Assembly: GCA_027064085.1 (NCBI GenBank)
Contig: JAMOQH010000044.1
Span: forward strand, 1 to 16,731
Reading direction: 5' to 3'
Length of the DNA stretch: 16,731 bases
DNA from: a bacterium
GTDB lineage: Bacteria > UBP6 > JAFGXH01
The translations under genes and the position numbers were made by a program. This document shows positions 1 to 2,959 of the stretch, piece after piece (within the stretch, counting starts at the first letter, position 1; each line of letters opens with the position of its first letter). Below the pieces are notes generated by a model. It ran no database searches. It worked only from the letters and a program-made list of their open reading frames with translations, and had not been told where the DNA came from.

Positions 1-1
1 A

Positions 2-58
2 CGGCACTCACTTTGCGAGAAGCGTGGTTCTCACGCTGGTGAGTTTTGGAGTTTCCTA
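2..58 (-). repeat. Second copy of the 57-bp stem-loop repeat after fliG (A2)
   Basis: This 57-bp unit is identical to the one at 74-130, giving a period of 72 bp. It contains the dyads 6-11/39-44 (ACTCAC/GTGAGT) and 15-21/28-34 around a 6-base loop at 22-27. It is about half G+C by my count in otherwise very AT-rich DNA. Similarity to the other copy ends at position 2, next to the window edge, so more copies may lie outside. No protein-coding content is evident. Confidence 0.9.
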
Positions 59-62
59 ATAC

Positions 63-130
63 GGAAACAGAACCGGCACTCACTTTGCGAGAAGCGTGGT
101 TCTCACGCTGGTGAGTTTTGGAGTTTCCTA
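63..130 (-). repeat. Nested stem-loop element overlapping the fliG stop codon (A1)
   Basis: Read on the minus strand (the sense of fliG), the element starts with the fliG TAG stop (128-130) and folds as three nested stems. The outer stem is GGAAAC/GTTTCC (123-128 with 63-68). The middle stem is ACTCAC/GTGAGT (111-116 with 78-83). The inner stem is GTGAGAA/TTCTCGC (100-106 with 87-93), with loop CCACGC. The inner stem holds one pair that is a U·G wobble on the minus-strand RNA but a C·A mismatch on the plus strand, which favours a minus-strand RNA structure. The 57-bp repeat unit itself is 74-130. The same architecture occurs after fliF at 1256-1324. Whether it acts in termination, mRNA processing or as a mobile repeat cannot be decided from the sequence. 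Confidence 0.8.
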
Positions 131-1204
131 TACAAATTCCTCACCTCCTTTTGCTAACATAATTTTACCTTCTTCTTCAAGTTTTAATGAAACATTAACA
201 ATTGCTTGCTGTGCTTTTTCTACATCAGATAATTTTACTGGTCCTAGCATATCTAAATCATCTTTTAAGTATTCGGCTGCTCTTGAAGACATATTCTTAA
301 ATATTTTTTCTTGTAAAGCTATTGGAGCAGTTTTTAAAGCCATTAGCAAACTATCATTTTCAACTTCTTTTAATATTGTTTGAATTGCTTTGTCGTCGAC
401 ATTCATTAAATCATCAAAAATAAACATTAACTGTTTAATTTCATCTGCTAATTCAGGTTCTAAATCTTCAAGATTTTCCATTAATATTCCTTCTGTTGAT
501 TTATCCATATTGTTAAATATTTCAGCAACCATTTCAACTCCACCTGCTTGCTGCATAGAAGTATTACCCATAGATTTTATTTCTTTATATAATGCTTCTT
601 CTATTACTTGTATGATTTCAGGAGAAATTGTATCAATTTTCGCCATTCTTAAAACAACATCTAATCTTGTTTCATCATCTAGTATCTGTAATATTTCGGC
701 GGATTTAACTGGATCTGTATATGCTAAAATAAGAGATATTGTCTGAGGATGTTCTTTTCTGATTAAGTTAGCGATTGTTCTTGATTCTACATTCATTAAT
801 GATTTTAATCTTGGTTGGTCTGTATCATTTATGCCTAGTAGTTTTTTAGCTTTTCCTTCTCCAAGAACACCAGATGCAATTTTTTTAATATATTCTCCAC
901 CTTGAGATATTGAAAGCATATCCTCACCCGCTTCCATTAGAAAACTTTTAAATATTGATAGTAGTTCTGGTTTGCTGAGCATAGATAATTCTGGCATATA
1001 AGTACCTAACTCTTTGATTTCTTCATCAGAAAACTTTCTGAAAACTTCAGATGCAATATCTTCTTCTAATATACTTAAAATTGCTAAACTCTTAACTGTT
1101 GCTTTTATGTTTGATAGATCTGCATAAGAAGATTCATCAGTATTATTATTCTCTTTTACTTGAGGTTTATTGTTTTCTTCTACTTTTTTTTGTGCTTCAG
1201 GCAT
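128..1204 (-). CDS. fliG: Flagellar motor switch protein FliG
   Basis: FliG forms the rotor ring of the C-ring on the cytoplasmic face of the MS ring and couples stator torque and CheY-dependent switching. The 358-aa product has an N-terminal FliF-binding domain preceded by a charged, Asn/Glu-rich extension of about 30 residues. The middle domain carries the canonical EHPQ motif (151-154), which contacts FliM. A Gly-Gly hinge follows at 221-222. The C-terminal torque domain has the MFIFDDL segment (260-266) and a charged helix beyond it. The start at 1204 has a clear RBS (AAGGAG, about 7 bases upstream). The gene lies 117 bp downstream of fliF, and the gap is filled by a stem-loop element. 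The stop codon TAG is the first codon of another such element. The next flagellar gene, often fliH, would be beyond the left edge. Confidence 0.97.
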   Translation of the reverse strand: MPEAQKKVEENNKPQVKENNNTDESSYADLSNIKATVKSLAILSILEEDIASEVFRKFSDEEIKELGTYMPELSMLSKPELLSIFKSFLMEAGEDMLSISQGGEYIKKIASGVLGEGKAKKLLGINDTDQPRLKSLMNVESRTIANLIRKEHPQTISLILAYTDPVKSAEILQILDDETRLDVVLRMAKIDTISPEIIQVIEEALYKEIKSMGNTSMQQAGGVEMVAEIFNNMDKSTEGILMENLEDLEPELADEIKQLMFIFDDLMNVDDKAIQTILKEVENDSLLMALKTAPIALQEKIFKNMSSRAAEYLKDDLDMLGPVKLSDVEKAQQAIVNVSLKLEEEGKIMLAKGGEEFV

Positions 1205-1215
1205 ATTTTCTCCTT

Positions 1216-1239
1216 ATGTTAAGTTTAATCATTTCTTTA
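1216..1239 (-). repeat. Half-element: direct repeat just before the fliG RBS (B2)
   Basis: These 24 bp are an exact copy of the stretch at 1301-1324, offset by 85 bp. They carry only the 5' arm of the element, with GTTAAGT at 1218-1224 and TCATTTC at 1229-1235 on the plus strand. They abut the fliG Shine-Dalgarno sequence. Both arms can pair with the 3' arms of the full element (GAAATGA 1256-1262 and ACTTAAC 1269-1275), so this copy competes with the arm next to the fliF stop codon for the same partners. Confidence 0.85.
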
Positions 1240-1255
1240 GCATTTTACCTCTTAC

Positions 1256-1324
1256 GAAATGAATAGGAACTTAACTTTGTAAGAAGCATCGTTCTTACGC
1301 ATGTTAAGTTTAATCATTTCTTTA
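1256..1324 (-). repeat. Nested stem-loop element overlapping the fliF stop codon (B1)
   Basis: On the minus strand the element starts with the fliF TAA stop (1322-1324). It folds as an outer stem GAAATGA/TCATTTC (1314-1320 with 1256-1262), a middle stem ACTTAAC/GTTAAGT (1303-1309 with 1269-1275) and an inner stem GTAAGAA/TTCTTAC (1292-1298 with 1279-1285), with loop CGATGC. All three stems are perfect 7-bp matches. The internal loop is ATGC on one side and AAA on the other. The layout matches the element after fliG (63-130), where the loops are CAGC and AAA. There is no U run after it, so it does not look like a simple intrinsic terminator; fliG must also be expressed from downstream of it. 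Confidence 0.8.
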
Positions 1325-2959
1325 CCCATTATTAATCCAATATCTTAAGATTTGTAAGACATTTTCTGGGTTTTCATAAGCAATTTCATTAATTTTCTTT
1401 CTTAATTTGGCTTCCAATGATTCCTCATTAATAACATCCTCTTCTTTATTAGTATCGGATTTTGTGCTTAAATGTTCAATACCTGTTTCACCATCATTTA
1501 ATGCATCAATTATTTCCTTTTCTGATTCAGATAATTCCATTAATCCGTTACTTGCTTCTAATTCATTAATATCAAGAACTTCCTCTCGCATTGTTGCCCA
1601 ATTTAAAATTTTTCTTAAAATTAAAAATGCTACAAGTAATAATAGTATATAGAATAAATATTTTGAGATTTTAAAATAAAATGCAGATTTTTTATAAAAA
1701 GGAGTGGGTTTATATACATCATCTTTAACTTCTTTAAAGGGCATATTTGCTACTTCAACTTGATCACCTCTTTCTAAATCATAACCAACAGCATTTTTAA
1801 CAATATTTAATAATGTTTTTATTTCTTTTTCTGTTCTAGGTACATAAATATTATTTCCCTTTTTATCTTTCTTATAGCTTCCATTTATAAGTACTGCAAC
1901 AGATATTTTTTTAACATTTCCAATACTTGATTTAGTACTTTTTACAACTTTTGATACTTCATAGTTTCTAATTTGGCTATTTCTAGTTTTTTCACCACTA
2001 TTTCCTTTGGTGATTGTTCCTTTTGCAGTGCCATTTTCAGGATTATTAGACTCACTTCCAGGTATTCCACCAATTTTATTTTCACCATTTATTTTTTTTT
2101 CGTCTAATAGCTTCTCAGATCTAATAGCTGTTGCATCAGGATCATATGACTCTTCTGATTTAGCCTTTTTGTCAAAATCTAGTAATGCTTCAACTTTGAC
2201 TATAGCGTTTCCTACTCCTAGGGCTCTATCTAAGATATCTTGTACTTGTTTTCTTAGTTTTTCTTCATATCTTTTTTGATATTCTAATGGTGTTTTATCT
2301 ATTCCATTATTATTATCTTGATTTAATTTATTACCATTTGTATCAACAATTGAGATATTTTCTTTTTTTAACCCTTCTATACTTCCTGCTACTAAAAAAA
2401 GTACTCCTTCAATTTGTTTTTTAGTTAAATAATCATTTTTTTTTAACTTTAATACTATAGATGCTGTTGCCTCTCTATCATCTTCTCTAAAAATAGCTTT
2501 TTTAGGCAATACTATATGTACTCTTGATGACACAACTGCTGAAAGTTGATTAATTGTTTTAGATAATTCTCCTTGTAATGCTCTTAAATAATTAAGCCTT
2601 TCCATAAAGCTAGTCATACCATATTTTTGTTTATCAAGTATTTCAAAACCAATTCCATTTCCAACAAGTTTTTTTTGTGCAAGAGTTAGTCGTAATTTAG
2701 CAACTTTTTCACTTGGAACCATAATGTTTCCACTATTTGTAACTTTGTAAGGGATTTTCATTACTTTGAGTTCTTTTGAAATACTTGCAGCATCTTCTTG
2801 TGCTAAATCTCTATACAAAAATGAATATTCAATTTCATCTTCAGATGCTAGTAGTAAAATTACAACAATTACTACAAAAAATAAAGAAAAGAATATGGCT
2901 GCTTTTTTTACTAATGATAAATTTTTAAATTTTTCTAGAATATTTTTCATTCCATCCAT
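1322..2959 (-). CDS. fliF: Flagellar M-ring protein FliF
   Basis: FliF forms the MS ring in the inner membrane, the base on which the rod, C-ring and export gate are built. The 545-aa product is close to the usual family length. It has an N-terminal membrane segment at about 19-38, a YscJ/FliF-type ring-building domain in the first half, and a low-complexity charged periplasmic stretch in the middle. A second membrane segment lies at about 435-452, followed by an acidic cytoplasmic tail. The tail ends in the FliG-binding region (ENPENVLQILRYWI), which agrees with fliG being the next gene. The start at 2959 is preferred because AGGGG lies 5 bases upstream; the Met three codons later would be too distant. 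The gap to fliE is 18 bp. Confidence 0.97.
   Translation of the reverse strand: MDGMKNILEKFKNLSLVKKAAIFFSLFFVVIVVILLLASEDEIEYSFLYRDLAQEDAASISKELKVMKIPYKVTNSGNIMVPSEKVAKLRLTLAQKKLVGNGIGFEILDKQKYGMTSFMERLNYLRALQGELSKTINQLSAVVSSRVHIVLPKKAIFREDDREATASIVLKLKKNDYLTKKQIEGVLFLVAGSIEGLKKENISIVDTNGNKLNQDNNNGIDKTPLEYQKRYEEKLRKQVQDILDRALGVGNAIVKVEALLDFDKKAKSEESYDPDATAIRSEKLLDEKKINGENKIGGIPGSESNNPENGTAKGTITKGNSGEKTRNSQIRNYEVSKVVKSTKSSIGNVKKISVAVLINGSYKKDKKGNNIYVPRTEKEIKTLLNIVKNAVGYDLERGDQVEVANMPFKEVKDDVYKPTPFYKKSAFYFKISKYLFYILLLLVAFLILRKILNWATMREEVLDINELEASNGLMELSESEKEIIDALNDGETGIEHLSTKSDTNKEEDVINEESLEAKLRKKINEIAYENPENVLQILRYWINNG

Follow-up and report, generated by a model that had tools for sequence, protein, structure and literature searches.

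The genes fliF (1322-2959, minus strand, 545 aa) and fliG (128-1204, minus strand, 358 aa) lie at the start of the window, by which we mean the whole 16,731-nt stretch of DNA analysed, and a hairpin element follows directly at the stop codon of each. On the minus strand the two elements share a common architecture, with an outer stem P1, an internal loop, a middle stem P2, a 4/3 internal loop (..GC / AAA), a 7-bp inner stem P3 and a 6-nt loop. RNA folding of the fliG hairpin (63-128, minus strand) gave three stems at -22.3 kcal/mol (z -3.4 against shuffles), in which P1 pairs GGAAAC (123-128) with GTTTCC (63-68), P2 pairs ACTCAC (111-116) with GTGAGT (78-83), and the inner hairpin is GTGAGAA-CCACGC-TTCTCGC (87-106), which is conserved across the repeat family. 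The fliF copy (1256-1324, minus strand) starts at the fliF stop TAA (1324-1322) and also folded into three stems (1257-1321, -16.0 kcal/mol, z -4.6 against shuffles), with P1 from GAAATGA (1314-1320) and TCATTTC (1256-1262), P2 from ACTTAAC (1303-1309) and GTTAAGT (1269-1275), and the inner hairpin GTAAGAA-CGATGC-TTCTTAC (1279-1298). The stems, loops and lengths that the initial annotation had described for both stem-loops were all found in the sequence, and both fold much better than shuffled sequences.

Each hairpin is followed by a second, direct unit. At fliG, a first 72-nt unit (59-130, minus strand) starts with the TAG stop codon of the gene (130-128), which is native, the sister-genus orthologue ending at the same codon. 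It is followed head to tail by a second unit (1-58, minus strand), 57 nt of which are identical to the first before the contig end cuts it. At fliF, the second unit is truncated (1216-1239, minus strand), with 24 nt identical to 1301-1324, and adjoins the fliG Shine-Dalgarno sequence AAGGAG (1210-1215); the unit ends upstream of this sequence and the fliG start codon lies outside it. The contig end falls within the fliG hairpin array (window 1-131), and assembly breaks at hairpin arrays may conceal more copies.

The two hairpins belong to a family of 10 loci in the 3.65-Mb genome, detected with a covariance model built first from 4 copies and later from 9, with the weak copies C144 and C49 left out. 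This was the kind of search that the initial annotation had pointed to, and it added eight loci of the same architecture to fliF and fliG. Eight of the 10 matched at E 1e-22 to 4e-7, including fliG (61-131, E 1.2e-22 in its own genome) and fliF (1254-1323, E 4.2e-17). The two weaker loci have independent support despite their model scores: at C144 (E 0.2) the middle stem pairs perfectly over 8 bp, and both the inner hairpin GTGAAAAccacgcTT and the same 72-nt partial repeat are present; at C49 (E 0.3) an inner hairpin lies at a stop codon, but the right arm is missing. Re-reading 0.94 Mb of the genome without the whole-genome prefilter gave no copies beyond those known. In 40 other genomes, of which 27 belong to the same phylum, the covariance model found no convincing copy, and weak matches in two of them (G018 and G001) were judged to be chance. 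The phage, plasmid and viral collections held no match to the element, none of 11 viral matches to a 16-mer contained it, and it had no match in fliG flanks from 16 named genomes or in the sister-genus loci. Rfam gave no hit in the window at gathering score, and a search of four loci at E up to 10 matched nothing at the elements; on this basis a known RNA or ribozyme family was rejected, in line with the earlier remark that no named family fits.

In this family the fold is kept although the sequence varies. In a nine-row alignment, 95.6% of cells pair and 13 of 19 pairs show two-sided change. The covariation score of this alignment, which was fitted to the structure and in that way favours covariation, was 0.538, compared with 0.187 +/- 0.030 for shuffles, none of which reached 0.538, and with 0.12 or less for slid-alignment controls; stems read by hand agree. 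The middle stem P2 changes at 6 of its 6 pairs, being hypervariable yet paired, whereas conservation is concentrated in the inner hairpin and in two internal loops, CTCGA / GCAGAACCC and AGC / AAA. Non-Watson-Crick cells of the standard type, read on the sense strand, were 6 G-U against 0 A-C by hand, a count tilted to G-U because the stems were drawn with G-U allowed, and 4 against 1 in the alignment. This excess speaks for the sense strand being the one that folds. The data thus support two earlier proposals, that the paired changes reflect constraint on a folded strand and that the wobble pairs fall on the mRNA strand. Such constraint may nevertheless act on single-stranded DNA during mobility as well as on mRNA, and arm-to-arm repair in a DNA palindrome could also make matched changes, so that covariation alone is no proof of RNA function. 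Intrinsic transcription terminators would account for hairpins lying directly 3' of genes, and the weak copy C49 does lie between convergent genes with T-rich DNA downstream. A search for GC-rich hairpins with a U-run found, however, 0 terminator-like sites on the coding strand of window 1-1700, and the fliF copy is within an operon; chance palindromes are excluded, given that a whole family exists and given its folding z-scores and covariation. We regard terminators or chance palindromes as a most improbable explanation.

Seven of the 10 copies start exactly at a stop codon, all in sense orientation, five at TAG (fliG, mlaE, the TusA/DsrE gene, tsf and frdB/sdhB) and two at TAA (fliF and the C49 gene). 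Of the remaining three, one is in-frame, between ..RFG and DYDSESGRW, within a gene that we take to be RHS-like from its motif, Pfam having given no match; one (C148) is fused to a decayed ORF; and one (C144) is antisense and intergenic between two genes. The 5' foot of the hairpin is GTAG at tsf and frdB and ATAG at fliG, mlaE and the TusA/DsrE gene, and a clear NTAG foot is absent in the other five copies (fliF, C49, RHS-like, C148 and C144). Stop codons make up 136 of the 2433 noncoding TAGs in 0.95 Mb, which gives a nominal p of ~5e-7 for all five TAG copies falling at stops by chance, a value that overstates the case because purifying selection favours sites just behind genes and because the five were picked post hoc. 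Stop-codon readthrough was considered and rejected, as the frame after the TAG closes within the element at fliG, mlaE and the TusA/DsrE gene.

Comparison with a sister genus, whose FliG is 77% identical, suggests how the element came to lie at these stops. There, fliG ends GGEPMV-TAG, frdB ends GWLKK-TAG and mlaE ends LMFG-TAA, each at the same length as here, and tsf ends AAQLQN-TAG, one residue longer; the element is absent from all four. All four orthologues stop no more than one codon from the ends seen here and are free of the element, so that it was probably inserted at native stops that already existed. Loss of the element in the sister genus is a less likely, though formally possible, alternative. 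Three of the four sister stops are already TAG, compared with 21% of stops in the sampled genome, and an existing NTAG may therefore be the target. The initial annotation had taken copies inserted in both orientations without regard to genes as the sign of a mobile repeat; the insertion part of this expectation is well supported, but the copies are strongly biased to the sense orientation.

The suggestion of a role specific to FliF:FliG stoichiometry finds no support, since copies also lie at tsf, mlaE, frdB/sdhB, the TusA/DsrE gene and the RHS-like gene, with one antisense and intergenic, and since the element is missing at the ends of the sister-genus fliG, tsf, frdB and mlaE; a fli-specific regulatory RNA was rejected on account of the occurrence of the family at unrelated genes. 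A more general alternative is a cis-acting RNA retained at ORF ends, a hairpin close to the ribosome as it terminates, which would adjust how fast the mRNA decays or how the next gene is coupled. The fliF copy offers its right arm two possible left-arm partners, and a stop codon occupied by a ribosome would change which of them is paired near the fliG start; in folding, blocking the first 12-20 nt of this copy makes the right arm fold onto the repeat that precedes the fliG Shine-Dalgarno sequence. The sense orientation of all seven stop-codon copies, the covariation and the sense-strand G-U pairs are also what this explanation would predict. It is hard to reconcile, though, with host genes that have no common pathway, with the absence of the element at four orthologous sister-genus genes, with one copy in-frame in the RHS-like gene and another in antisense, and with a second left arm that is missing or short at tsf, frdB, C148 and C49. 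We consider a general cis-acting RNA unlikely. A regulatory effect at fliF-fliG, as modelled by folding, is possible, and nothing shows selection for the arm switch.

At five loci a second copy follows head to tail, in most cases truncated. Exactly 72 nt downstream, the beginning of the unit is repeated at fliG (57 or more nt), mlaE (30), the TusA/DsrE gene (22) and C144 (24), and at fliF the repeat lies 85 nt away (24 nt exact). The arms at the TusA/DsrE gene and C144 are unrelated to those of other copies, yet the period is the same 72 nt. Independent duplications would hardly share a period, and we therefore infer that the unit itself is ~72 nt and that it was probably multimeric when moved, or was multiplied at a fixed joint. 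Self-comparison also turned up other repeats with periods of 72 nt or close to it, and these are coding repeats or palindromes of other kinds.

Several observations point to a small mobile element: insertion, raised GC content (0.42-0.51 in six copies compared with 0.28 for the genome), the copies in the RHS-like gene and in antisense, and host genes that share no pathway. From these sequence features we think it reasonably likely that the hairpins at fliF and fliG represent a small palindromic element, mobile but non-autonomous, whose unit is ~72 nt. A putative structure-recognising enzyme, most likely of the HUH/Y1 kind (IS200 or REP-transposase), would act on the folded single strand and join the element beside the NTAG or TA of a target. 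The first bases of the element (TAG-GAAAC) would keep or re-make the stop codon, leaving the length of the host protein unchanged and the insertion nearly neutral. We propose that pairing in the hairpin is maintained because the enzyme would use the folded strand as its substrate; the transcribed hairpin may perhaps also be kept paired to avoid harm to the mRNA. Effects on fliF and fliG expression would then be side effects. The genome has 3 Y1_Tnp genes, and a model search with filters off found no element in the flanks of any of the three; mobilisation by these resident Y1 transposases was therefore rejected, and membership in the REP class is not established. The lack of flanking copies at any transposase, the low copy number, the direct rather than inverted unit pairs and the five copies with no clear NTAG foot count against the mobile element, and its precise stop placement and sense bias exceed what a TAG/TA target plus purifying selection would obviously predict.

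Two other proposals centre on the stop codons. The element may be of an undescribed mobile kind, with 72-nt units integrating in sense at stops by way of transcription or translation rather than a DNA motif alone and with P2 re-made in matched pairs, which we hold to be quite unlikely. More doubtful still is an RNA-level or translation-linked element, in which a 72-nt circular or multimeric RNA or ssDNA would be joined at the UA/G of stop codons. Such joining would explain both the sense orientation and the stop-codon precision, and is in line with the seven of 10 copies at stops, all sense, with the constant 72-nt unit at 1.3 or more units per site, and with the nominal p of the five TAG copies. 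Against this, neither an enzyme nor an intermediate is known here, the copy in the RHS-like gene and the antisense copy lie away from stop codons, and selection for harmless positions accounts for part of the bias.

Among known systems, GTAG-REPs and MIRUs are the closest in behaviour. The TAG of GTAG-REPs often supplies the stop codon of flanking ORFs (PMC3733652), and these repeats are recognised as single-strand hairpins by Y1 transposases (PMC8266576). Like GTAG-REP/RAYT (TnpA-REP) systems, the element is a short palindrome 3' of genes with a 5' TAG foot usable as a stop, a strand-specific structure and some intragenic copies (PMC3733652, PMC8266576), in a genome that has Y1_Tnp genes. In contrast to REPs, which are 20-50 nt with a single stem, occur in hundreds of copies and form inverted pairs, it is ~70 nt with three stems, occurs at ~10 loci and forms direct 72-nt units, has an A/GTAG foot in five copies only, and has no RAYT gene flanked by it. 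MIRUs (mycobacterial interspersed repetitive units) differ in inserting at start codons or stop/start overlaps and in coupling a short ORF to the next gene, whereas the element described here is a conserved hairpin that needs no ORF. MIRUs are sense-oriented and tandem. They are mobile small repeats placed precisely at ORF ends (PMC12548453), and the likeness to our element lies in this position, in the little effect on genes, in the seven of 10 copies in sense at stops and in the five tandem loci. Correia/NEMIS, RUP and Rickettsia palindromic elements are likewise non-autonomous palindromic repeats, sometimes in-frame in genes (PMC2229807), but measure about 100-150 bp, have terminal inverted repeats and for the most part duplicate a TA target, whereas stop-codon placement dominates here. 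Integron attC sites resemble the element as folded sites directly behind an ORF stop, with AAC/GTT innermost in the outer stem and a variable stem sequence, and differ in that the element has conserved internal loops and no cassette array. The attC boxes have the consensus RYYYAAC / GTTRRRY, and the outer stems GGAAAC/GTTTCC, GCAAC/GTTGC and GAAATGA/TCATTTC do not fit it, so that an attC site was rejected. The element is unusual in that it keeps strictly to stop codons, favours the sense orientation, forms direct 72-nt units and has a middle stem that is hypervariable but paired.

Other repeats were also noted. A different double-hairpin palindrome (..CCACCAACAAGGGG..CCCCTTGTT..GATGGTGG; L038:1325-1400 and L038:1860-1935, on G000:C32) flanks a RAYT-like Y1 transposase gene that lies ~2 kb from the tsf hairpin copy, and one of the flanking palindromes is in the reading frame of that gene. 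Two sub-threshold Rfam matches to Whalefall-1 (RF01762; 29.2 bits, E 2.8e-4, gathering 37), at L003:2941-2994 and L003:485-540, fall within ORFs as Pro/Ser/Glu-rich insertions (..YPPPEAKHLASNPSQEG..), and this Whalefall-1-like 'RNA' may be a palindromic repeat inserted in-frame. Further tandem palindromic families occur in this genome at L104:15507-15650, L073:8964-9080, L081:14054-14150 and L114:8106-8310, examples being GGACGAG..CTCGTCC within Lys-rich reading frames and, at a contig end, a double-hairpin unit of 75 nt. A CRISPR-like array (30-nt repeat CTTTTTACTTTACCTATGAGGAATTGAAAC, period 64-67 nt) lies at L088:1-1300 (G000:C39).

The small bacterial repeat described here combines covariation of the kind seen in structured RNAs with the behaviour of a mobile element, and lies precisely at native stop codons whose counterparts in the sister genus are free of it. 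It serves as a warning that covariation at gene ends is by itself no proof of a regulatory RNA. With this element it also becomes testable by what means small hairpin repeats come to lie where they do no harm, a question that is open for REPs and MIRUs.
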